Below, piece by piece: positions 119 through 33,192 of a stretch of 41,697 nucleotides of DNA. This stretch comes from Ilyobacter polytropus (lineage in GTDB: Bacteria > Fusobacteriota > Fusobacteriia > Fusobacteriales > Fusobacteriaceae), in NCBI GenBank assembly GCA_003246855.1, contig QKCP01000139.1:1-41697 (forward strand). Direction: 5' to 3'. The translations under genes were made by a program, and so were the position numbers. Within the stretch, counting starts at the first letter, position 1. Every line of letters begins with the position of its first letter. Under the pieces are notes generated by a model that saw only the letters and a list, made by a program, of their open reading frames with translations, was not told the DNA's origin and did no database searches.

Positions 119-247
119 TTGTTATAATTTAGAGGTGATGATAAAAAAATCTAGAAAAATTAAGGATAAAAATTAAAATTTCTTGATTTTTTCTAAAAAA
201 GTGTTATAATCATAGGAGTTTTGTTATAATTTGTGGATGATGATAAA
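119..247. repeat. Two-copy direct repeat in the rep leader
   Basis: Copies at 119-145 and 221-247 share TTGTTATAATTT, then five variable bases, then TGATGATAAA. Each includes an extended -10 (TGTTATAAT); a third TGTTATAAT lies at 202-210. The first copy is followed by a possible 12-codon leader (ATG at 138, stop at 174-176) behind AGAGGTG. The second copy runs into the rep start. The repeat could be iteron-like Rep binding sites or a duplicated expression signal; the sequence alone does not decide. No DnaA box was recognised in bases 1-246. Confidence 0.5.
183..210 (+). promoter_or_regulatory. Promoter of the replication initiator
   Basis: TTGATT at 183-188 and TATAAT at 205-210 with a 16-bp spacer and an extended TG upstream of the -10. 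It lies 49 bases before the preferred rep start. A second extended -10 at 223-230 could also serve. Confidence 0.5.
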
Positions 248-258
248 TGGGGGGAAAT

Positions 259-2016
259 ATGACCAAAGATAAAGAGTCTTTGTTTGAGGTTCTTCAAATA
301 GGGGAAAAAGACGATTTTACAATAGATATAAAGTCAGTTAAACCTAAGAAAATTCCTACAAAAACTGTATCTCTTTATTTAGAGGAGATGGATATAAGGG
401 ATACAATTAACCAGCCATTTATATTTATAATACTGCCTTTTTTTACTTCAAAAAGACAGAGAAATGTAAATTTGGTATATGAAATAGAGAATGCTGGCAT
501 TAAATTTGGAGCCTCTCTTAGTTCGGATAATTTTGAAGGTATAAAAAACCAACAGCCATCTGATTTTGAGAAAAACGTGTTCTATTTTATATTGTATAAA
601 TTTCAAGAATTGCTTATGAATGGTGAAGATGCTGATAATATAGTTTTTAATATAGATGAAATTATAGAGTATCTAGGGTTGAAGTTTTCTATGAAATATT
701 ACAGAAAAATGGAGGAAACTCTTTTTAATTTGCAGGGAACGACTTATAAAATTGCCATAAGAAACAGAAAGAAGGCTGGCAATATTATAAGGGAGGTTTA
801 CAAAGAACCTTTAAATCTGATTAGGTATGAAAAGGTAAAAGAAAGAAATACGGTTACTAATAAGATGAAAGTCTATTACAAAGTTACTTTAGATAAGAGA
901 ATAATAGAAGAACTGAGGATAAAGCACTACTCTATTTTCGATAGACATCTCTTAAATGATCTAAGAAAGTCTGATAGAGCTTCTGAAAAGATATATCAGT
1001 TTATCAGTATGAAAAGGTTTTCTAGTGATGAAGGTGAGTACCGTATAGAAACTCTCGCGACTATAATTCCTCTTACACTGACTAGCAGGATAAAAAAGAA
1101 GCTCAAAAATGGTGAAGTAAAGGAATATGAAGTCAGCAAGATGAAACAGGTGGCTAGAAGGATAAAAAAGGCTTTTGATGTACTTGTAAAAAAGAAATAT
1201 TTGCTTAAATATGAAATGGTGGAATTAAAATCTCTGAAGTCTTATAAATTTAGGTATATATTTAACGTGGAAAAAGATAACTATTGTCACATATCAAACC
1301 TTATAGGCAACAAGAAAACCGAGAGGTTGAAACTAATAGAGTTAGATGAGACTAGCAGCCGTACGCCTAAAAAATCAGGAGCATCTTCTGAAAAAGTCGG
1401 AATGACCCAAACTGTATTAGATGAAGTAAAAAGGGCTAAAAAAAATATATATGTTTCCAAAGCCTGGAACAAGTGGGTCGACAATAAGATACAAAAAATA
1501 TATGAAGAAAATGGTGAGGAGTATACTGTAAATATTTTAAGGACCGTGTACAAGAGTCTTAACAAGGAGATAAGCAAGTCTCTTGTGGGTTATATAAATG
1601 GTATAATGAAGAATATGGAAGAAAGCAGCAGTGAAAATCAGCTTTCTTTTGGTAGATATTCACCTGACAAAAATGAAATAGTTGAGATAGAAGCGAATGT
1701 TGAGATAGAGGATGCTGAAATAGTTTTAGAAGATAAAAAGATTGATAATATAAATGTTACAAAAAAATCTAATTTGGACACAACTGAGTTAAAAACTCCA
1801 AAACTTGACTTAGATGATCCGATATCAAAACTTCTTTTAGAACTTTATAGTAAATTATCTGAAAATGAAAAAACTGTGATTAAAACTAAGGCTGTAGAAA
1901 AGTATCTGGAAGCAACAGATAGCGAAGCCATGACAAAAGTGCATGAACAAATATTTAAATCGCTTGAAAAAATATATGTATTAGAGGTTATGAAAGAGGA
2001 TAAAGGTATAGTATAA
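259..2016 (+). CDS. Replication initiator protein, RepB/Rep_3 superfamily
   Basis: Probable plasmid-type initiator that binds origin repeats and opens the DNA. The central part (about residues 85-345) has the look of the two winged-helix Rep_3 fold, with the segment KSDRASEKIYQFISMKRF near its middle. The roughly 240-residue tail is charged and of low complexity, longer than in small-plasmid Rep proteins, and may contact partner proteins. I prefer the ATG at 259 because GGGGGG lies four bases upstream; an in-frame ATG at 247 would add four residues and has no clear ribosome binding site. A small out-of-frame ORF (237-272) overlaps the start, hinting at translational coupling. The stop codon sits inside the left arm of a perfect terminator hairpin. 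The family call is from sequence character, without a search. Confidence 0.8.
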   Translation: MTKDKESLFEVLQIGEKDDFTIDIKSVKPKKIPTKTVSLYLEEMDIRDTINQPFIFIILPFFTSKRQRNVNLVYEIENAGIKFGASLSSDNFEGIKNQQPSDFEKNVFYFILYKFQELLMNGEDADNIVFNIDEIIEYLGLKFSMKYYRKMEETLFNLQGTTYKIAIRNRKKAGNIIREVYKEPLNLIRYEKVKERNTVTNKMKVYYKVTLDKRIIEELRIKHYSIFDRHLLNDLRKSDRASEKIYQFISMKRFSSDEGEYRIETLATIIPLTLTSRIKKKLKNGEVKEYEVSKMKQVARRIKKAFDVLVKKKYLLKYEMVELKSLKSYKFRYIFNVEKDNYCHISNLIGNKKTERLKLIELDETSSRTPKKSGASSEKVGMTQTVLDEVKRAKKNIYVSKAWNKWVDNKIQKIYEENGEEYTVNILRTVYKSLNKEISKSLVGYINGIMKNMEESSSENQLSFGRYSPDKNEIVEIEANVEIEDAEIVLEDKKIDNINVTKKSNLDTTELKTPKLDLDDPISKLLLELYSKLSENEKTVIKTKAVEKYLEATDSEAMTKVHEQIFKSLEKIYVLEVMKEDKGIV

Positions 2017-8675: not shown

Positions 8676-9107
8676 ATGAAAAGATTTTTAATAGCTGTAT
8701 CGTTGTTGGCCCTGGTTGGATGTGCTTCTGAAGGCCTTAAAAATCAGCTGTCCGAGGCAAAAGAACAATTGGAGGTTGTGAAGTCCGATTTAGAAAAAGA
8801 AAGAACCGAGCACCAAAAGACAAGGGAAGAATTAGATACTGTAAAATCTCAGTTAAATGTTAATATAGCGGAGATATCAAAATTAAAAGAAAATTTAAAA
8901 GTCTCAAAAACCGATTCAGAGGTTTCTAGTAAGCAGTGGTCTGAGCTTAAGGCTAAAATTGACAGATCTGAAAGAGAAAAGAAAGCTTTGCAGATGAAGA
9001 TAAACAGTCTCAGTAAGGTAAGCAATACGCTAGAAGGTGTGAAAAGTGGTGTAGAATCTGCTATAGTAGATGTAGATGAGCTGAAATATGAAATGAAGGG
9101 CGAATAG
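8676..9107 (+). CDS. Coiled-coil lipoprotein, copy 1
   Basis: 143-residue predicted lipoprotein. The signal peptide MKRFLIAVSLLALVGC ends in a lipobox with lipidated C16. The rest is almost entirely heptad-rich, charged and helical (residues 20-140), so a rod-like or trimeric periplasmic coiled coil similar in style to Lpp/OmpH-like spacers is likely. It is a clear paralog of the next gene: both carry EHQKTREEL and an S-x-TLEGVK-x-GV segment at equivalent positions. This copy has an extra 20 residues in the middle. No enzyme motif. A structural role in linking the outer membrane to other envelope layers is an inference. Confidence 0.7.
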   Translation: MKRFLIAVSLLALVGCASEGLKNQLSEAKEQLEVVKSDLEKERTEHQKTREELDTVKSQLNVNIAEISKLKENLKVSKTDSEVSSKQWSELKAKIDRSEREKKALQMKINSLSKVSNTLEGVKSGVESAIVDVDELKYEMKGE

Positions 9108-9218: not shown

Positions 9219-9596
9219 ATGAAGAAATTTGCAATAGCTATTGCACTTCTCGCTTTTTTTGGGTGTTCTTCAAATGAGATGAAACAGGAATTAGAGGTTG
9301 TAAAGGCTGATCTTCAACAAGAAACTTTGGAACATCAGAAGACCAGGGAAGAACTTGAGATTATAAGAGCTCAGTTAAACGAAAAACTAGCGGAACTTGC
9401 AGCTCTAGAGGATGAATTAAAGGTTGCTGAAGTAGATTTAAGTGTAGCTCAGAAAAAAGTGGATATAGTTGAGAAGCAAAAGCAAATAGTTGAGGTTCAA
9501 GTAGATAAGTTGAATAAGTTGTCTAGCACTCTAGAGGGGGTAAAAGACGGGGTACATACAGCCATAGACGATATAGAAAAGATAAAGAGTAAGTAA
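9219..9596 (+). CDS. Coiled-coil lipoprotein, copy 2
   Basis: 125-residue paralog of the preceding gene. The lipobox (AFFGC, C16) is followed by a continuous charged coiled coil. It shares EVVKADL, EHQKTREEL and STLEGVKDGV with copy 1. It has its own AAAAGGAGG ribosome binding site, a possible -10 TATAAT at 9176-9181 with a weak -35, and a strong terminator after the stop, so it may be transcribed separately from copy 1. The pair reflects a tandem duplication followed by divergence. Function unknown beyond a probable envelope-anchored coiled coil. Confidence 0.7.
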   Translation: MKKFAIAIALLAFFGCSSNEMKQELEVVKADLQQETLEHQKTREELEIIRAQLNEKLAELAALEDELKVAEVDLSVAQKKVDIVEKQKQIVEVQVDKLNKLSSTLEGVKDGVHTAIDDIEKIKSK

Positions 9597-9597
9597 T

Positions 9598-9631
9598 AAA
9601 AAATAAGCCGAACTCTATCGGCTTATTTTTT
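9598..9631. terminator. Bidirectional terminator, lipoprotein / acyl ligase
   Basis: 14-bp stem AAAAAATAAGCCGA / TCGGCTTATTTTTT, loop ACTCTA. It overlaps the last codons of the convergent minus-strand gene. Confidence 0.9.
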
Positions 9632-12079
9632 ATTTGTCCATGCTGTGACATCACTTAGGGTTTTTTCCACTATCTCTTCTATGGTAAGGTTGTGAGGTTC
9701 AATTTTTTGGAAAAATTTTATGCTGAGTTTTTTAGGCCTTGGAAATTTTTTCCCAAAGGAGAAGGCATCATAAGCTCCGTTTATGGCAAAGGGCACCACA
9801 GGTATATCTAACTGTTTACTTAAGATAGCAAATGTTTTTTTAAATTCATTTAAGCTTCCATCCCTCGTTCTAAGGCCTTCCGGAAATATAACTATATTCT
9901 TTCCACTTTGCAAAATTTTTGCTATTTTTTGCAGAGATTCTGTCAGGTTTTTGTTAATATCCACTGTCAGTATATTTGAATTTTTACTGAGATATTTTAG
10001 GATTCCCTTTTCGAAGTGCTTTATTTTTGCCAAATAACAGGTTTTTTCTACCGAGCGGAACCTGAGAGCGTTGTTTATCATTAGGCCGTCTATAAAACTT
10101 TGGTGATTTCCAGCTAATATGCATGGGGTGTTTGGAATATTTTCCACCCCTTCTTTTTTAAATCTAAAATAGAGTTTAAATGCAGGGGACGATAAAAGTT
10201 TTATAAACTTCAGGAATAGGGCAGACTTAGGCAACTCAATGTCATTTTTTGAGTTTAGTATAGCCCCCCAATCCGTACTTGAATTTCCAGTTTTAGTTTT
10301 ATTCGCATTTATGTATACTGAGAGCTCTTCAACAGTTGGATTTTGAAGGAGTATTTTTTCGTTCATGTCTATACCGAAATTATCTCCTATAAACGCAAAC
10401 AGCTCTACCATATCAAGAGAGTCCAATCCTATATCTAGCTCAAGGTGGTAATCCGGTAGCACCTCCCCTTTTCTGCTATTAAGGTATTTTTTCAGTATGT
10501 GGTATTCTTCCAAGTCTGGTTCCTCTATATTTTCATTTTTTTCATCTTTCTCCTTTAAAAGTTCTTGTAGCTTAAAGCGTTTCAACTTACCTATTTTAGT
10601 TTTTGGAAGTTCCTGTTTTACGATTTTTATATGCAGTATCTTTTTATAGGTCGGGACCTTGGAGTTGTATTTGTCGATTACTTTTAGCTTTAGGGTTTCG
10701 ATTATGTTGCTTATCTCTAACTCTTTTATTTTTTTGAAATTAGGGTATATAATGGCAGCAAGTATGCTGTTATGTTCCACAACTCCAACCTCTTCTATTA
10801 GGTCGGTATTGGACAAAATTTCCATTTCGAGCTCTAGTGGATTTATATTTTTCCCATTGGGTAAGACTATCATCTCTTTTTTTCTTCCTGTTATGAAAAT
10901 ATAACCATTTTTCAGATAGCCCTGGTCTCCGGTGTGCAGCCATCCATCCTCGTCGATTATCTCACTGCTTTCTTTTGGATTGCCGAAATATCCCGTCATG
11001 ACGTTTGGTCCCTTAACCAAAATTTCTTTATCTTCTGCTATTTTAACCTGGCACCCTTTTAATACTTTACCGGCCGATCCAATAACGATTTTACCTGGAG
11101 GGGTAAAGCTTATCATAGGTGCACATTCAGTCATACCATAACCCTCTATAAGATCAAACCCAAGCGCCTGATACCCCCTGACTATTTCAGGAGATATCTT
11201 GGCCCCGCCTGATATGAATAATTTTACGTTTCCTCCGAATGCCTGATGGACTTTTTTAAATACCAGTTTGCTTAAATTTTTGCTGTTTATGTTTTTTAAC
11301 ACAAAGTAGGCGACTCTTGTGAAACGTTTTTTCTGTATTTTATCCATTATCCCTTTGAAGAAGATCTCGTAAAGTTTTGGAACTGCTATAAGCAGGGATA
11401 CACTGTTGTTTTGGAAAGCTTCTTTAATTGATTGTAGAGACAACTCTTCTAGTATTACTACTGAAGCACCAACATGCAGGGGCATTATAGCTGATCCTAC
11501 CAAAGGGAATATGTGGTGCAGTGGCAGCACATCTAGGACGACATCTTCTTTTGTATAGATTTCGGAGTCACGGAGGCCACTAAGATTGATTTCTAAATTT
11601 CTATAACTGAGCACTACCCCTTTTGGGTCTCCAGTTGTCCCGGAGGTGTAAAGCATAAGGCAGGGGGAATCCATATCTGGAGTTTTTATGAATACATCCT
11701 CTCCAATATAAATGGAATCCAGATATTCAAAACAGAGCAAGTCTATATTTTCCTGAAGTCTGTTTATCAACGGGTAGAGTTTTTTGTAGCCGGTTTTAGA
11801 GGTGATTATATAGCTTGGTTTGGAGTCCTCTATTAAAAATTTAAACTCCTCTTCGCTACTTGAAAAGTCTACAATTACGCAGATACCCTTTTTTTCCCAA
11901 ACCGCAAAAAAAGCAAATAAAAGCTCCGGCCTATTTTCTGAAAAAATTATTACACGCTCGTATTTTCCAAGCGTCATTTTTTCGCTATATCCCTTTGCAG
12001 ACCTTATGAATTCCTCATAGGATATCTGCCTATTCCCAAAAATTATCGCAGTTTTATTAAAATCTTCTATAAAAACCAA
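9623..12079 (-). CDS. AMP-ligase / acyl carrier / acyltransferase fusion, copy 1
   Basis: Three-domain lipid enzyme. Residues 1-510 form an acyl-adenylating ligase (YTSGTTGDPKG at 144-154, GYGMTECAP at 313-321, TGRKKEMI near 397). Residues 525-595 form an acyl carrier with GLDSLD (Ser554 for phosphopantetheine). Residues 620-818 form a PlsC-type acyltransferase (NHQSFID at 658-664, FPEGLRTR at 732-739). Family knowledge suggests a free fatty acid is activated, loaded on the built-in carrier and passed to a lysophospholipid. Domain order is reversed relative to E. coli Aas (acyltransferase first), and the embedded carrier is extra. Start is TTG with AGGGGG seven bases upstream. It is a tandem paralog of the next gene, but a terminator lies between them. 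Confidence 0.85.
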   Translation of the reverse strand: MVFIEDFNKTAIIFGNRQISYEEFIRSAKGYSEKMTLGKYERVIIFSENRPELLFAFFAVWEKKGICVIVDFSSSEEEFKFLIEDSKPSYIITSKTGYKKLYPLINRLQENIDLLCFEYLDSIYIGEDVFIKTPDMDSPCLMLYTSGTTGDPKGVVLSYRNLEINLSGLRDSEIYTKEDVVLDVLPLHHIFPLVGSAIMPLHVGASVVILEELSLQSIKEAFQNNSVSLLIAVPKLYEIFFKGIMDKIQKKRFTRVAYFVLKNINSKNLSKLVFKKVHQAFGGNVKLFISGGAKISPEIVRGYQALGFDLIEGYGMTECAPMISFTPPGKIVIGSAGKVLKGCQVKIAEDKEILVKGPNVMTGYFGNPKESSEIIDEDGWLHTGDQGYLKNGYIFITGRKKEMIVLPNGKNINPLELEMEILSNTDLIEEVGVVEHNSILAAIIYPNFKKIKELEISNIIETLKLKVIDKYNSKVPTYKKILHIKIVKQELPKTKIGKLKRFKLQELLKEKDEKNENIEEPDLEEYHILKKYLNSRKGEVLPDYHLELDIGLDSLDMVELFAFIGDNFGIDMNEKILLQNPTVEELSVYINANKTKTGNSSTDWGAILNSKNDIELPKSALFLKFIKLLSSPAFKLYFRFKKEGVENIPNTPCILAGNHQSFIDGLMINNALRFRSVEKTCYLAKIKHFEKGILKYLSKNSNILTVDINKNLTESLQKIAKILQSGKNIVIFPEGLRTRDGSLNEFKKTFAILSKQLDIPVVPFAINGAYDAFSFGKKFPRPKKLSIKFFQKIEPHNLTIEEIVEKTLSDVTAWTNKK

Positions 12080-12152
12080 AAGGTTTCCCCCTAACTATCC
12101 ATATTTTCATGTGCCACCAAGTATATGCTTTTCAGTTTTAACTTTGTAAATA

Positions 12153-12178
12153 AAAAGACTAGTATAAACTAGTCTTTT
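12153..12178 (-). terminator. Terminator of acyl ligase copy 2
   Basis: 11-bp stem AAAAGACTAGT / ACTAGTCTTTT, loop ATAA, with T5 downstream on the minus strand. The stem contains the stop codon of the upstream gene. It separates the two paralogs. Confidence 0.8.
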
Positions 12179-14643
12179 AACCATTCTATAATTAGATTTC
12201 TCGAATTAACTATTATTTCCTCTATTTTCAAATTTTCTGGGTATATTGGCTTGAAAAACTTTATTCTGAGTTTTTTAGGTTTTGGGAAACTTTGCCCAGC
12301 GGGCATAGCTTCGTAAGGGCCGTCTATACCAAAGGTAACTACGGGAACGTTCAATTCTTTGGCAATAATAGCAAAGGCCTTTTTAAATTCCTCTACCTCT
12401 CCGCTTCTAGTTCTAGCCCCCTCAGGGAATATAACTATGTTTTTTCCATTTTTTAAGACTTTTGCCACCCCTTTTAGAGTCATAGAAAGATCTTTGTTTA
12501 TATCTATCACCAGCACGTTTGAGTTATCAGCCATGGTTTTCATAAATGGCGTGTTAAAATATTTTACTGTTGCCAAAAAGTAGGTGTTTTTAAGTACCTT
12601 GTTCGGCAGGGAATTCACTACCATGAAACCATCTATGAAACTTTGGTGGTTACCTACTATAATAGTAGGTGAATTTGGAAGGTTTTTCATGCCATTCTTG
12701 TTCAGCCTGAAATAAAGTGCGAATACAGGCCAAAGGATTATCTTTACTGCCCTCAACACCTTCCAAGAACGTGGGAACTCTATGTCTATGTCCTCATTTA
12801 ATATTTTTCCCCAGTCGGTTTTACCATCGCTAATCTCAGAAGCATTTATCTTGAGATATTGGGCTAATTTCTCAACGGTAGAATTTTCTATGAGTATATC
12901 TTCTTTTATTTCCAAGCTGAAAGTCGATTTTAAAAATGAACCTAACTCGATTAAATCTAGTGAGTCCAGTCCTAGGTCAAGCTCAAGATGGGAATTAGGG
13001 AGTATTTTTATCCCTTTTTCCTCTTCTAGGTATTTTTTTATTATGGTGTACTCCCTGTAGTCAGGTTCCTTGACTTCTTTTTGGACTGCAGCTTTTTCTT
13101 GTAGGAGCTCCTTTACTTTAAACCTTTTAAATTTGCCAAGCTTGGTTTTAGGCAACTCTTCGCTTACTATTTTTATATTATGAATTTTTTTATAGTTTGG
13201 CACCTGGAGGTTGTAAGGGTCTATAACCTCCCATTTTACAGTTTCGGCTATATTTGAAATCCCCTTCTCCATCAGTGTCTTAAAGTTTGGGTATATTACG
13301 GCTGTGAGCTGATTTTTATTCTCCAGTACCACAATTTCCTGAATAATGTCTTTGGAAAGTTCCCGTATTTTAAACTCTATCTCAGTTGGGGCAATATTTT
13401 TACCGTTTGCTAATATTATAAGCTCTTTTTTTCTACCGGTGATAAACAGGAACTTGTCTTTGTCTAGGCTGCCGATGTCACCTGTATGGAGCCATCCCTC
13501 GCTGTCTATCGCTTCTTTGGTTTCCTCTGGCTTGTTATAGTAGCCCAACATTACATTTGGACCTTTGACTAAAATTTCTCCGTCATCCTCTATTTTTACC
13601 TCCATGCAGTCCAGTATTTGACCAGGGGAACCTGGCTTTATCTTGTCTGGACGAGTCACCGAGATGATTGGTGCGCATTCAGTCATACCGTACCCTTCAA
13701 GCACAGAAAACCCAAGTATGGTAAAATCCTTTGCTATCTGTTCGTCTAATTTTGCCCCACCTGAAACCAGGTATTTTATATTTCCACCAAACGCCTGATG
13801 TACTTTTTTAAACAATTTTTTTCTGAAGCTTTGGTTGTTTACATGTGAGGCAAGTTGAAATAAAATTTTTGCAATTTTATTCGATTTTATTTTCCCCATG
13901 ACTCCTTTATGCAGAAGTTCGTAAAGCCTTGGAACACCAATTATTATACTTATGGAGTGTTTAGAAAGGGCATCCTTTATACTGTCTGAGGATACTTCCT
14001 TTAAAATTATTGCCGTTATCCTATAATTTAGAGGCAGAATAACCGTAAAAACCAGTGGAAGAATGTGGTGAAAAGGTAGGATGGCAAGTAAGGTGTCCTT
14101 CCCCATTTCAGCTATCCCCATGCCTTCGATCTCCCTCAAGTTGACTCTGATATTTTTATAGGTCAACATAACCCCTTTTGGGTTACCTGTTGTTCCTGAT
14201 GTGTATAGTATAACGGCGAGTTGCTCGTCGTCTGGTTCCATAAAATCTTCAGGTTTTTTTTCTGAAGTACGGAGTTCCTTGTCTAAGTCCTCCATAAGCA
14301 GAATTTTTATTCCGGGATCACTTTTTGCCGCGGCTTCTTTCGCCGTATCTAAACACTCTGAAGAAGTTATGAGTATCTTTGGCGAGCAGTCACTGATTAT
14401 GTAAGCCAAGTCATCAGAGGTGCTCGAGGAGTCCACACAGACTGCGACCCCTTTATTTTTCCAGGTAGAAAAAAAGGAGTAGTGGTACTCAGGCCTATTT
14501 TCGCTGAATATAACCACTTTGTCTCCTTCGGATATATCCAGGAGCTTTGAATAAGTGTTTATGTTAGTCAAAAGGTCGTCGTATGTTAGTTTTAATTCAT
14601 CGTATATTAGTGCAGTCTGGCTGCCTCCTTTTATGAGCTCCAT
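12169..14643 (-). CDS. AMP-ligase / acyl carrier / acyltransferase fusion, copy 2
   Basis: Paralog of the downstream gene with the same order: adenylating ligase (LYTSGTTGNPKG, GYGMTECAP, ITGRKKELI), acyl carrier with LGLDSLD, then PlsC-type acyltransferase (NHQSFIDG, FPEGARTRSG). The Ser of GLDSLD is the expected phosphopantetheine site, and the NHxxxxD box supplies the acyltransferase base. I choose ATG at 14643, which has GGGAG seven bases upstream; the ATG at 14658 contains that site inside its coding sequence. Its terminator lies before copy 1, so the two are probably independently expressed and may differ in chain length or acceptor. It may recycle fatty acids into membrane lipid without passing through CoA; this is inference. 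Confidence 0.85.
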   Translation of the reverse strand: MELIKGGSQTALIYDELKLTYDDLLTNINTYSKLLDISEGDKVVIFSENRPEYHYSFFSTWKNKGVAVCVDSSSTSDDLAYIISDCSPKILITSSECLDTAKEAAAKSDPGIKILLMEDLDKELRTSEKKPEDFMEPDDEQLAVILYTSGTTGNPKGVMLTYKNIRVNLREIEGMGIAEMGKDTLLAILPFHHILPLVFTVILPLNYRITAIILKEVSSDSIKDALSKHSISIIIGVPRLYELLHKGVMGKIKSNKIAKILFQLASHVNNQSFRKKLFKKVHQAFGGNIKYLVSGGAKLDEQIAKDFTILGFSVLEGYGMTECAPIISVTRPDKIKPGSPGQILDCMEVKIEDDGEILVKGPNVMLGYYNKPEETKEAIDSEGWLHTGDIGSLDKDKFLFITGRKKELIILANGKNIAPTEIEFKIRELSKDIIQEIVVLENKNQLTAVIYPNFKTLMEKGISNIAETVKWEVIDPYNLQVPNYKKIHNIKIVSEELPKTKLGKFKRFKVKELLQEKAAVQKEVKEPDYREYTIIKKYLEEEKGIKILPNSHLELDLGLDSLDLIELGSFLKSTFSLEIKEDILIENSTVEKLAQYLKINASEISDGKTDWGKILNEDIDIEFPRSWKVLRAVKIILWPVFALYFRLNKNGMKNLPNSPTIIVGNHQSFIDGFMVVNSLPNKVLKNTYFLATVKYFNTPFMKTMADNSNVLVIDINKDLSMTLKGVAKVLKNGKNIVIFPEGARTRSGEVEEFKKAFAIIAKELNVPVVTFGIDGPYEAMPAGQSFPKPKKLRIKFFKPIYPENLKIEEIIVNSRNLIIEWLKD

Positions 14644-14713
14644 TTTTTCATCTCCCATCGATAGTTGTTTTAATACAAGTTTAGCACACCAAGATGTTTA
14701 TTTCAAATAAAAA

Positions 14714-14744: not shown

Positions 14745-14894
14745 CTAGCATAAATTTTCTATGAGTTCCTCGAGTTCTTTCCTTTCTTTTTGAGTAAGGT
14801 CATGCCCTGACTTCAATATGTCTAAAATTTTACTTTCACTTCCACTTGAAGAGGACTCTATGATTTTTATAATCAGTTTTCTATAGAAATCCAT
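14745..14894 (-). CDS. 49-residue protein in the two-component operon
   Basis: Short ORF starting MDFYRKLIIKIIES and ending EELIENLC, with an ideal AAGGAGGAG ribosome binding site five bases (TTATG context) before its ATG. It starts 17 bases after the sensor-kinase stop and ends just before an intrinsic terminator, so it is almost certainly the third gene of the regulator-kinase operon. The protein is charged and helical, with an amphipathic N-terminus and no membrane span or signal peptide; the segment LTQKERKELEELIENL is a likely helix. I do not recognise a family. It may modulate the kinase. It falls below common ORF length cut-offs. Confidence 0.6.
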   Translation of the reverse strand: MDFYRKLIIKIIESSSSGSESKILDILKSGHDLTQKERKELEELIENLC

Positions 14895-14911: not shown

Positions 14912-16276
14912 TTATTCTTCTTCAGATAGCGGGAGTAGGACTTCAAAAGTGCTTCCAACCCCTTCAGTGCTCTGTATATTAAGTGTACCCTTATGCTGCT
15001 TTATAATGAATTCAACTATGGATAGACCAAGACCTGTTCCAGATTTTTTACTGGTTCTAACCTTGTCCTCTCTGAAAAATTTCTCGGTTATCTTCTTCAG
15101 ATTCTCTTTCTTTATACCTATCCCGGTATCCTTGATACTTATTTTTGCATGGGAGTCTTCTATACGGGAGCTTATGAATATCTCCCCGTTCTCCCTGTTG
15201 TACTTTATGGCGTTTGATACTAGATTTATAAGCATCCTCTTTATTTTGTTTTTATCGCATTTAAGGATGTAATCCTCTAGGTCGGTGTGTATCCTTATGT
15301 TGCTGTCCATGGCCATTATCTCTACGAGGTCATAGATCTCTTCTATGAGCTTTTTCATGTTGACCTCTTCTATGACGAAGCTTTGCTTATCCCCCCTTGT
15401 CATGAGGAGAAGGTCCTGTATTATTGAGTTCATCCAATTAACGTCGTCTAGTATGTTTAAAAGCACCTCTTTGTGGTGCTCGGCATCTTTGTCGTCGTCT
15501 TCTGCCATTAGCTCCACTTCTATAGTACTTTTTAGGGATGTCAGCGGTGTCCTCAGCTCGTGGCTAACGTTGCTGGAAAAATCCTCCACCCTTCTAAAAG
15601 TAGTCTCTATCCTGTCTAGCATGTTGTTCATGGTGCCAACTAGCTCATCGATCTCTTGGCTCCCGTATTTTTTATTTATCCTAAGCTTCAGCTTGTTTTT
15701 CTGTATATTCTTTGTAAAATCTGTTATCTCGTGGATAGCCCTAAATATTACGCTTATTAGTTTACTTGCAAGTATAAGGTACAGAACTGTTATTATAAAG
15801 ATAAGTGTTATAAATGAATATACTATTATTTTTCTTATATTTTCCATTAGGGTTATATCTTTTGAAAGAATTATATAAAAGGGGTCTCCGAAAAATTTGT
15901 GGGTGCTTACATAAAATCTATATTTTTCAACAGAAAATTTAAAATTATTGCTGGTTATATTCCTCTTAAATTCTCCAAGATTTCTTCTATAGAAATCTAG
16001 GTCGAAGTTATCGAGATACTCAGGAACAAACTCTTTGTCCACTATGGCAAAGCCAATTGTCAGTGGGATATAGCCCTGCTCTTTTCTAAGGAAAGATTTT
16101 CCGAGGGTTATCCCCTTTGAGGTGATATTCCTCTTTAGAGCAGCATTTGCTATGTAAAGCTCTTTATCTATTTGAGAATAGATGTTGGACTTTATAAGGC
16201 TGTACATAATAAAATGTACCACGCATATGACAACGAGACCTATGATCCCATTGTAGAATAGGAGGTTTTTTTTCAT
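14912..16276 (-). CDS. Sensor histidine kinase
   Basis: Membrane sensor kinase with classical layout: transmembrane helix at residues 9-29, an extracytoplasmic sensor region of about 115 residues, second helix at about 148-172, a HAMP-like linker, then HisKA with the phospho-acceptor H239 in FSSNVSHELRTPLTSL. The ATPase domain follows (NLVSNAIKYN N-box, DTGIGI and GTGLGLSIV G-boxes). It lies 20 bases downstream of its OmpR-type regulator gene. The sensor region carries basic and aromatic residues but no motif naming a ligand; domain style resembles CusS/envelope-stress kinases. The signal is unknown. Confidence 0.93.
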   Translation of the reverse strand: MKKNLLFYNGIIGLVVICVVHFIMYSLIKSNIYSQIDKELYIANAALKRNITSKGITLGKSFLRKEQGYIPLTIGFAIVDKEFVPEYLDNFDLDFYRRNLGEFKRNITSNNFKFSVEKYRFYVSTHKFFGDPFYIILSKDITLMENIRKIIVYSFITLIFIITVLYLILASKLISVIFRAIHEITDFTKNIQKNKLKLRINKKYGSQEIDELVGTMNNMLDRIETTFRRVEDFSSNVSHELRTPLTSLKSTIEVELMAEDDDKDAEHHKEVLLNILDDVNWMNSIIQDLLLMTRGDKQSFVIEEVNMKKLIEEIYDLVEIMAMDSNIRIHTDLEDYILKCDKNKIKRMLINLVSNAIKYNRENGEIFISSRIEDSHAKISIKDTGIGIKKENLKKITEKFFREDKVRTSKKSGTGLGLSIVEFIIKQHKGTLNIQSTEGVGSTFEVLLPLSEEE

Positions 16277-16296: not shown

Positions 16297-16965
16297 CTAT
16301 GCTTTTAATATGTACCCTACTCCCCTTACAGTATGGATGAGTTTTTGATCAAAGTCCTTGTCTATTTTTTTTCTCAAATGATTTATATATACGTCTACTA
16401 CGTTTGTGTCAGTTAGGAAGTCAATGTTCCATACTTTTTCTGCAATCATGGTTCTTGTAAGAACAAGATTTTTGTTTCTCAGGAAGTACTCTAAAAGAGA
16501 GAACTCTTTTAAGGTAAGTTCTATTGTCTTATCCCCTCTTTTAACCTCTCTGTTTAAAAGGTTAACTGTAAGGTCGGCAGCGCTTATGATGCTCTCCTTG
16601 TCCTCAGAATTTCTTCTTAGTACAGCTCTAACCCTTGCAAGCAGCTCTGCAAATGCAAAAGGTTTGGTGATGTAGTCGTCTGCTCCTGCATCAAGGCCTG
16701 TAATTTTATCCTGGATTTTATCCTTGGCTGAAATAAGTATGATGTAGGCAGAGTTTTTCTCTTTACGAAGGGTTTTGCACACCTCTACGCCATCCATTTT
16801 AGGGATCATTATATCTAAAAGAATCAAGTCATAATCATTTATAGAAGCCATGTACACAGCGTCTTCACCGTCATGCGCTATGTCAACCTTGTACCCTGCT
16901 TCCGCCAGTCCCTTTTTCAGATAATTGGCTATGTTTTTTTCGTCCTCAACAACTAGTATTTTCAT
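16297..16965 (-). CDS. OmpR/PhoB-family response regulator
   Basis: Two-domain transcription factor: receiver at residues 1-118 with acidic pocket ED (7-9), phospho-acceptor D51 in LILLDIMIPKMDG and K101 in YITKPF, then a winged-helix DNA-binding domain (LTLKEFSLLEYFLRNKN, terminal VRGVGYILKA). It is first in the operon with the kinase and a 49-residue protein. A promoter with extended -10 lies upstream, and AT-rich repeats around it could be autoregulatory sites. Target genes cannot be deduced; the flanking acyl-ligase genes or the peptidase are candidates only by position. Confidence 0.94.
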   Translation of the reverse strand: MKILVVEDEKNIANYLKKGLAEAGYKVDIAHDGEDAVYMASINDYDLILLDIMIPKMDGVEVCKTLRKEKNSAYIILISAKDKIQDKITGLDAGADDYITKPFAFAELLARVRAVLRRNSEDKESIISAADLTVNLLNREVKRGDKTIELTLKEFSLLEYFLRNKNLVLTRTMIAEKVWNIDFLTDTNVVDVYINHLRKKIDKDFDQKLIHTVRGVGYILKA

Positions 16966-30699: not shown

Positions 30700-33192
30700 T
30701 TTTACCATCCCCTTTTGGTTTTTTCCTTTTTTATTTGAAGGCTTAAAGCCCTTTAATCTGAGAGCATTGCTAACAACCGATACCGAGCTGAAAGCCATTG
30801 CGGCTCCGGCTATCATCGGGTTTAGTTTTGGACCGCCGAATGCATAGAGTACCCCTGCTGCTATGGGGATTCCTAGGGTGTTGTACGCGAAAGCCCAGAA
30901 AAGGTTTTGTTTGATGTTCCTTATGGTGGCCCTGCTTAGCTCTATGGCGGAAACTACGTCCTCTAGGTCACTTTTCATAAGCACTATATCAGCTGACTCT
31001 ATGGCTACATCAGTACCTGACCCTATAGCTATACCTACATTTGACTGGGCCAGTGCCGGTGCATCGTTTATGCCATCTCCCACCATGGCCACTATTTCGC
31101 CATTTTCCTGGATTTTTCTGACTTCATTTGCCTTATCTTGAGGCAGTACCTCGGCAAGAACCATATCTATGCCAACGGTTTTTGCAATGGCAGCTGCAGT
31201 CCTCTTGTTGTCACCAGTTATCATAGCGACCTTTATACCCAGACTGTGAAGTCTTTCAATAGCGCTACGGCTGGTTGGTTTTACGGTGTCTGCCACGGCG
31301 ATTATACCTTCCAACTTACCATTTATACCTATGAACATAGGTGTTTTACCTTCTGCGGCCATGGTGTCTGCCTCTTTTTTCAGAGTTATTTTTATATTTT
31401 TTTCATCCATAAGCTTCTGGTTGCCCAGAAAGATATCCTTGTCGCCCATAACAACTTCTATACCCTGTCCCGGTATTGCTGTAAACTTATCCGGTTTTTC
31501 AAGCTTAAGTCCTTTTTCTTCAGCGTTTTTTATAATTGCTTCCCCAAGTGAATGCTCAGACCCCTTTTCAGCCGCTGCGGCTATGGCCAGAAGTTTGTCA
31601 TCACTATAATTTCCACTTGATATTATATCCGTCACCCCGGGTTTACCTTCTGTTATGGTACCTGTCTTGTCGAAAACTATAGTATTTACTCTGTGGCTTG
31701 TCTCAAGGGGTGCACCGCCTTTTATTAGTATGCCGTAGTCAGCCCCTTTTCCAGTCCCAACCATTATGGCGGTTGGTGTGGCCAGTCCCAGGGCACACGG
31801 GCAGGCTATTACGAGGACTGCTATGAATATTGTGAGAGCAAGTATAAAATCTGCCGTAGCTAAGTACCATATGATGCCTGATACCACGGCTAACGAGATG
31901 ACAACCGGCACAAAATAGCCGGCTATTATGTCAGCCATATGTGCAATGGGAGCTTTGGATCCCTGCGCATCTTCTACAAGCCTTATTATCTGTGCTAACG
32001 CAGTATCTTTCCCAACCTTTGTAGCCTTGAACTGTATTGCCCCATTTTTGTTTATAGAGGCTCCAACTACCTTATCGCCAGTGTTTTTTTCCACCGGAAT
32101 ACTCTCGCCGGTAAGCATGGATTCGTCGATGGAAGTGTGCCCCTGAATAACTATACCGTCAACCGGTATTTTTTCTCCAGGTTTTACAACGATTACGTCT
32201 CCTACCTCCACTTCTTCTATGGGGATTACGACCTCTTCTCCGTTTTGGATTACCAATGCGGTCTTAGGCTGGAGACCTATGAGTTTCTTTATGGCTTCGG
32301 AGGTTTTCCCTTTTGTCAGAGTCTCCAGATATCTACCCAGCATTATAAATGCTATTATTACTGCTGCCGACTCAAAGTATAGATCTTTGGCATATTCTAA
32401 GTTTCCTGTGGCGATCTGTACTGTTCCATATACACCATAAAGGACAGCAGCAGACGTCCCCATAGCTATAAGGGAATCCATGTTAGGGTTTCTCTTGATC
32501 AGGTTTTTAAATCCTATGGTGTAAAATTTATATCCGGCTGCTACAACAGGAACTGTAAGAATTAGTTGTATCAAAGCAAAACTTAATGGGTGCATATCTG
32601 GGCTTATAAACTCTGGCAGCTTAAGACCCAACATGTGACCCATGGCTATATAAAGCAGTGGGACTGAGAACACTGCGGCCGTTAAAAACTTGTAGAACAT
32701 GACAGTTTTTTCCCTTTCGCGTTCCATTTTTTCCGCATCCAAAGTCTCTGTCTTGTCAATCTCCAGAGGCTCATACCCCGCGTTTATTATAGAGGTTTTT
32801 ATCTCAGATATTCTGGTTATAGAGGGGTCGTATTTTACAGTGGCCTTTTCGGTGGCCAAGTTTACGTTTACCTCTAAGACACCGTCCAACTTGTTTATGC
32901 TTTTCGTAACTGCAGCTGTACATGAAGCACAGGTCATCCCCTTCACCGGGATACTTACTGATCTGAACTCCTCCTTTTCGCTTAATTCGTAGCCAGCATT
33001 TTTTACAGCCTCTGAAATAGTTTCTGAGTTCAGGATAGCTTCGTCAAAGTATATATGCAGCTTTTCTGTTGCGAAGTTAACATTAGCATCCTGCACACCG
33101 TCTAGCTTTTCAACCGTTTTTTCGACGGCCCTGGCGCAAGCAGCACAGGTCATTCCCTTTACGTCGAACTCTTTTTTTTCCAATTTAACCAC
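30490..33192 (-). CDS. copA: Copper-exporting P1B-type ATPase with C-terminal CopZ domain
   Basis: Membrane pump exporting Cu(I). Two N-terminal heavy-metal domains carry GMTCAAC (C16, C19) and GMTCASC (C88, C91). Then come eight helices with transport motif CPCALG, phosphorylation site DKTGTITEG, nucleotide-site [18 protein letters not shown] hinge, and [15 protein letters not shown] in the last helix, the Cu(I) signature. After a basic linker a third metal domain, GMTCGHC (about 842-846), closes the protein at 900 residues; most CopA proteins end after the last helix. The DNA at this junction resembles the gene's own start. The real start may be TTG three codons in (33183), since AAGGA abuts the GTG at 33192. 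Likely controlled by the nearby CsoR. Confidence 0.95.

Follow-up and report, generated by a model that had tools for sequence, protein, structure and literature searches.

A tandem pair of ligase-carrier-acyltransferase genes in a Fusobacteriaceae genome may encode self-loading, Aas-like lysolipid acyltransferases

Introduction

Proteins that activate a fatty acid, hold it on a carrier domain and carry an acyltransferase domain in the same chain have been described in Myxococcus xanthus. According to the excerpted text of a 2022 review, ElbD of this bacterium joins a FAR1-like domain, a ligase (ACS), a carrier and an AGPAT-like domain in one protein, both its ligase and its carrier proved active in vitro, and ether lipids are strongly reduced in elbD mutants (PMC9131029). 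A second article, in its available part, states that bacteria can arrive at alkyl glycerols by way of ElbD or Ger (PMC11150832). The same review excerpt mentions "ElbD-like homologues" outside the myxobacteria, almost all without FAR1, which occur in anaerobes, pathogens and extremophiles; it credits Lorenzen et al. 2014, names no phylum in that excerpt and describes lipid analysis of them as scarce or lacking (PMC9131029). Here we analyse a stretch of 41,697 nucleotides (the window; positions 1 to 41,697 of contig QKCP01000139.1, assembly GCA_003246855.1), assigned to Ilyobacter polytropus, in which two neighbouring genes, copy 1 and copy 2, each encode a ligase, an acyl carrier and an acyltransferase in a single polypeptide. 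Our literature search, covering few subscription journals, found no study of fusobacterial three-domain proteins. We propose, with modest confidence, that both proteins load a fatty acid onto themselves and transfer it to a lysolipid, in the manner of Aas.

Results

The two genes lie on the minus strand with 89 bp between them, and their products share 48% identity. The features of the pair are the following.

12169..14643, minus strand: copy 1, ligase-carrier-acyltransferase of 824 amino acids (alternative start at 14658)
13537..14622, minus strand: copy 1 AMP-binding ligase domain (PF00501, 231.7 bits)
12853..13005, minus strand: copy 1 acyl carrier domain (PF00550, 36.7 bits)
12961..12963, minus strand: copy 1 carrier serine codon, Ser561 (serine in 84 of 84 aligned fusobacterial proteins)
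12325..12705, minus strand: copy 1 PlsC-type acyltransferase domain (PF01553, 87 bits)
12153..12178, minus strand: terminator-like hairpin after copy 1 (-12.4 kcal/mol, z -4.3)
9623..12079, minus strand: copy 2, ligase-carrier-acyltransferase of 818 amino acids, TTG start
10985..12058, minus strand: copy 2 AMP-binding ligase domain (PF00501, 205.7 bits)
10313..10465, minus strand: copy 2 acyl carrier domain (PF00550, 30.9 bits)
10418..10420, minus strand: copy 2 carrier serine codon, Ser554 (GLDSLD)
9782..10162, minus strand: copy 2 PlsC-type acyltransferase domain (PF01553, 82.3 bits)
9595..9634, minus strand: terminator hairpin after copy 2 (17 pairs, -21 kcal/mol, z -7.5)

The domain content of both copies was established with Pfam, which places AMP-binding, AMP-binding_C_3, PP-binding and Acyltransferase in that order, all above the gathering score. 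The mechanical open reading frame (ORF) of copy 1 opens at 14658, giving its carrier serine the number 566, but GGGAG stands before the ATG at 14643 and this ATG is most likely the start. Hairpins with a T tract follow both genes, and a weaker one (z -1.8) lies ahead of copy 1; a pattern scan for terminators lists the hairpin after copy 2 only. These results agree with the original prediction, made from the letters of the window, which had described tandem paralogs on this strand with the upstream gene starting at 14643, a terminator behind each, the order ligase, carrier, acyltransferase, and a GLDSLD serine at position 554 of the 818-residue copy. It had also called the domain order the reverse of that of Aas, and this was confirmed with the family NF005959, where the acyltransferase occupies residues 9-146 and the ligase residues 480-646 of 719.

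The carrier domain sequence of copy 1 matches acyl carrier proteins in the PDB (best expectation value, E, 5e-6), and its acyltransferase domain has a sole PDB relative, the PlsC structure 5kym_A (E 6.9e-14). An AlphaFold2 model of copy 1, built from 24 sequences, has a mean predicted local distance difference test score (pLDDT) of 84.6 and a predicted template modelling score of 0.60; the 50 PDB matches listed for it by Foldseek are adenylate-forming enzymes or proteins containing them, including the peptide-synthetase ligase-carrier structures 4r0m and 6mfw.

We then aligned 84 fusobacterial proteins (two from Fusobacterium plasmid records; those of genomes G051 and G053 were left out) with one protein of Rubrobacter. 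DSL at the carrier site never varies among the 84 fusobacterial proteins, in contrast to several of the columns beside it. The P-loop, NHxSxxD and xPEGxR are kept in all 85 full-length homologues, and the strict A10 lysine motif in 84 of the 85, the exception being L084. As the carrier serine and the P-loop and acyltransferase motifs are conserved, all three domains look functional at the level of sequence, and since P-loop, carrier serine, NHxSxxD and xPEGxR are kept in all homologues, the architecture is, on this alignment, not a product of chance.

The kinship of the acyltransferase domain was examined by scoring it alone. The best model is the Aas-type NF006386 (copy 1, 94 bits; copy 2, 93; Rubrobacter protein, 79), followed by TIGR00530, the lysophosphatidate model (77, 67 and 41 bits), whose cut-off of 102.95 bits neither copy reaches. 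Scores from different models are not strictly comparable, and the genome's own PlsC served as internal control: this protein of 251 amino acids (120 residues scored) gave 125 bits with TIGR00530, over the cut-off, and 57 bits with NF006386. The comparison suggests that the domain has more in common with Aas-type enzymes than with those acting on lysophosphatidate, and for this reason it favours transfer to a lysolipid. The whole proteins score 208 and 237 bits with NF006386 (cut-off 1221) and 116 and 144 bits with NF005959 (cut-off 886).

The distribution of the protein was determined in 61 Fusobacteriales genomes of 23 genera, the host's own (2.49 Mb, 96.7% complete, 5.1% contamination) and 60 relatives. 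According to the search table, 55 of the 61 carry at least one intact full-length copy; four have none (G002, G011, G030 and G037), G018 has a fragment at a contig end and G047 a broken gene. The latter, at G047:C1:1810065-1812389, is a match with 23 stop codons, apparently a decayed copy. At least two copies are present in 28 genomes, in 19 of which they are neighbours on the same strand. An Aas-like protein was detected in three genomes (G005, G017 and G024) at E 1e-150 or better, a threshold of our own choosing that recovered the E. coli positive control, and all three also carry the three-domain protein.

Outside the Fusobacteriota, a search of plasmid records (and of these only) found the same three domains in WP_084264133.1, encoded on a plasmid of Rubrobacter radiotolerans. 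A search for the architecture across phyla, suggested along with the original prediction, was carried out as a pattern-based scan of one genome per species (84,980 species), with the carrier-acyltransferase half as query. It found 209 relatives, and the best 80 of these, from 15 other phyla, all match ligase, carrier and acyltransferase in this order within one open frame; the ligase part is short in five (L110, L121, L125, L133 and L145), three of them at a contig end. The 80 loci belong to Acidobacteriota (38), Aquificota (8), Pseudomonadota, Omnitrophota and Bacteroidota (6 each), Thermodesulfobacteriota and Ignavibacteriota (3 each), Actinomycetota and Fidelibacterota (2 each) and six further phyla (1 each). 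The DNA pattern demands the carrier DS, so that carrier conservation in this set would be circular and was not used; the scan cannot serve to count the family or to test the serine. Strict NHxSxxD was found in 74 of the 80 and the strict P-loop in 30, the latter with a pattern designed on the fusobacterial form. Lengths and scores in these loci suggest two forms, a compact one of about 820 amino acids, to which the fusobacterial proteins are similar, and a longer one with about 900 or more. In five of the six Omnitrophota loci fetched, one gene family flanks the long-form protein, and its sole Pfam-scanned member (L107 7317-8159) is a FeeM-type N-acyl amino acid synthase; a PilZ protein adjoins this gene in L107. 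In summary, the protein pair is real, conserved and widespread.

The presence of two copies raises the question of their specialization. A tree of the homologues in the family resolves paralogue clades A (26 rows) and B (30 rows). Placed together, the window copies join as long branches; placed singly (60 of the 85 rows), copy 2 joins clade A at a support of 93 and copy 1 falls outside A and B, so that copy 1 may be called B-type by its neighbours only, and the position of the window pair in the tree is unsure. Four columns separate the clades at 80% or more in each; all are in the ligase, two of them near A5, with none in the carrier and none in the acyltransferase. The duplication is old and retained. 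The idea in the original prediction that the copies handle different acyl chains or acceptors is thereby thinly borne out: the four ligase columns speak for it and the other two domains contribute none, leaving a split by acceptor without sequence support. The copies may still differ in their acyl chains or in their regulation.

The metabolic setting was read from the host genome. It encodes PlsX, PlsY and PlsC, as well as a fused FakA-FakB in which FakA and a DegV (FakB-type) part share one frame (L174, G000:C130, DegV match 32027-32869); phospholipids can therefore be made de novo, and free fatty acids used by one route, without the pair. Copies 1 and 2 are the sole two AMP-binding proteins found in the genome.

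The genes upstream of copy 1 include a microprotein and a two-component system.

14748..14894, minus strand: microprotein gene of 48 amino acids upstream of copy 1, with conserved homologues
14912..16276, minus strand: sensor histidine kinase (Pfam HATPase_c, HisKA), in the same position in I. polytropus
16297..16965, minus strand: response regulator, 83% identical to the regulator that occupies this place in I. polytropus

The window and I. polytropus share one gene order: M18 peptidase, response regulator, histidine kinase, 48-residue ORF and two copies. The 48-residue ORF stands just upstream of 16 of the 30 clade B rows and of window copy 1, and 14 of the 30, like the window, have a same-strand response regulator no more than 2.5 kb upstream; neither was found upstream of any of the 26 clade A rows. 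The regulators are 29-83% identical to that of the window, and because these identities vary so widely they may not all be orthologous.

The microprotein (48-49 amino acids) occurs in one copy in 43 of the 61 genomes, with 16 invariant positions in 14 rows, and has no convincing Pfam match; its model, three helices with a pLDDT of 85, has no PDB match at E 0.001. We considered whether it might be part of the enzyme, an idea weakened by its presence in G011 and G037, which have no three-domain enzyme, and by its location away from the three-domain gene in 26 of the 43 genomes. Sixteen of these distant sites were read, and 13 adjoin what appears from the sequence to be a peptidase-like gene.

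Elsewhere in the window, a 589-residue ORF at 247-2016 (plus strand) matches Replication initiator protein A below the cut-off. In I. polytropus the gene pair sits on the 961-kb plasmid pILYOP01, which raises the possibility that the contig of the window is itself a plasmid or a second replicon. Two similar small ORFs, coiled-coil and lipoprotein-like, lie tail to tail with the pair (8676-9107 and 9219-9596, plus strand); apart from one weak match, they were not found beside the copies in other genomes.

Discussion

In the mechanism that we propose, the ligase domain would convert a free fatty acid and adenosine triphosphate into an acyl-adenylate, as its family suggests, and the acyl group would move on to the phosphopantetheine arm attached to the carrier serine of the same protein, the residue that is invariant in the alignment. 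The C-terminal PlsC-type domain would then transfer it to a lysophospholipid or similar lysolipid at the inner membrane, the acceptor being the least certain step. The protein would work like Aas with its own carrier in place of a soluble one, or as an ElbD core minus the reductase, and its role in Fusobacteriota would be membrane lipid repair or acyl remodelling and not bulk synthesis. The self-loading acylation put forward in the original prediction stands in part: conservation strongly supports activation, an own carrier and an acyltransferase, and the profile scores favour the lysolipid, while the predicted bypass of coenzyme A and of a soluble carrier protein is a putative feature. The complete PlsX, PlsY and PlsC route, the position of the pair as the only AMP-binding proteins found in the genome and the scarcity of Aas (3 of 61 genomes, against 55 of 61 with an intact three-domain copy) also speak for the proposal, as do the in vitro activities of the ElbD ligase and carrier (PMC9131029).

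Several observations weigh against this proposal. The fused FakA-FakB offers another way to use free fatty acids, and profile scores of different models are a rough guide to the acceptor. In E. coli the usual sources of lysophospholipids are outer-membrane phospholipase A and Lnt; the former was not found in the host genome at its 96.7% completeness, and the latter gave no match over the cut-off there, with a sub-cut-off match in a frame of 288 amino acids. If the acceptor is a lysolipid, it must have another origin, such as other phospholipases or an outside supply. In addition, purified ElbD gave no detectable acyltransferase activity, as reported in the review excerpt (PMC9131029).

Other acceptors and functions were weighed on the same evidence. 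Acylation of glycerol 3-phosphate or lysophosphatidate would turn the pair into a parallel de novo phospholipid route from free fatty acids. The domain belongs to the PlsC superfamily, both copies have TIGR00530 as their second-best model, the one PDB relative is the PlsC 5kym, and two copies could serve two positions; we nevertheless regard this route as unlikely, given that PlsX, PlsY, PlsC and the fused FakA-FakB are already in the genome and that neither domain reaches the TIGR00530 cut-off of 103 or scores as high with that model as with the Aas-type one. Moreover, in the available part of one study, exogenous fatty acids do not relieve fabK silencing in Fusobacterium nucleatum, its authors pointing out that outer-membrane synthesis requires the fatty acid pathway anyway (PMC11091888), a result that speaks against large-scale fatty acid salvage. 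Slightly less probable again is a role in making ether lipids or plasmalogens. Here the ligase, carrier and acyltransferase domains shared with ElbD, as the excerpt describes it (PMC9131029), are set against the lack of a reductase domain in either copy. The host genome was searched for such a link and gave no support: PF07993 matches three stand-alone frames of 322-334 amino acids, at E no better than 4.7e-10, and DUF2229 (PF09989), which we take to mark the anaerobic ether-lipid enzymes PlsA/Ger, was not found.

A non-phospholipid lysolipid, such as an N-acyl amino acid, seems to us about as improbable as the ether-lipid step. The gene family beside the Omnitrophota proteins, whose one scanned member is of FeeM type, hints at another acceptor of this kind, and GlsA, a lyso-glycine lipid acyltransferase, is weakly matched by copy 2 (37 bits against a cut-off of 260), but the Omnitrophota proteins are of the more distant, longer form and no such gene was seen in the 18 families that most often neighbour the fusobacterial copies. 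Finally, the ligase might merely supply acyl-CoA (coenzyme A, CoA) or acyl-ACP (acyl carrier protein, ACP) to the cell, with carrier and acyltransferase as accessory parts; this is very improbable, the carrier serine and the acyltransferase motifs being kept in all 84-85 proteins, which would be unexpected for accessory domains.

Beyond self-loading lysolipid acylation by the window pair, we tentatively put forward a broader view, in which we have distinctly less confidence: that FAR-less ElbD cores across phyla may be CoA- and soluble-ACP-independent lysolipid acyltransferases, which would have replaced Aas in most Fusobacteriota and, in one family of the order, undergone an early duplication, there often beside a two-component regulator. 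With such a regulator adjacent, membrane acyl repair would be under envelope sensing. If true, Fusobacteriota, including oral and tumour-associated species, would acylate lysolipids by a one-protein enzyme instead of Aas, and lysolipid acylation in bacteria without Aas would be explained. The fusobacterial proteins would also offer a test system for the acyltransferase half of ElbD-type proteins, the half for which no activity was detected.

In conclusion, the pair resembles three known systems in different ways. Like Aas (NF005959, NF006386), each copy unites a ligase and a PlsC-type acyltransferase in one protein; in Aas, however, the PlsC domain is N-terminal and the ligase C-terminal, and Aas borrows a soluble carrier whereas here the carrier domain is built in. 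The Rubrobacter protein WP_084264133.1 has the three domains in identical order, at a length of 911 amino acids and about 27-29% identity, and is annotated merely as "AMP-binding protein". With ElbD, compared by domain description, the copies share ligase, carrier and acyltransferase in one polypeptide; the N-terminal FAR1-like reductase of ElbD is found by Pfam in neither, their ligase match starting at residue 8-13. ElbD thus goes halfway towards the characterised enzyme of this exact architecture that would speak against the original prediction: in the excerpted description it combines these three domains with a reductase, and its in vitro ligase and carrier activities reduce the novelty of the three-domain protein. 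The architecture is not unprecedented: it is the ElbD core without the reductase, its outline already in print, and the fusobacterial proteins fit the description of the FAR-less ElbD-like homologues in the review excerpt.
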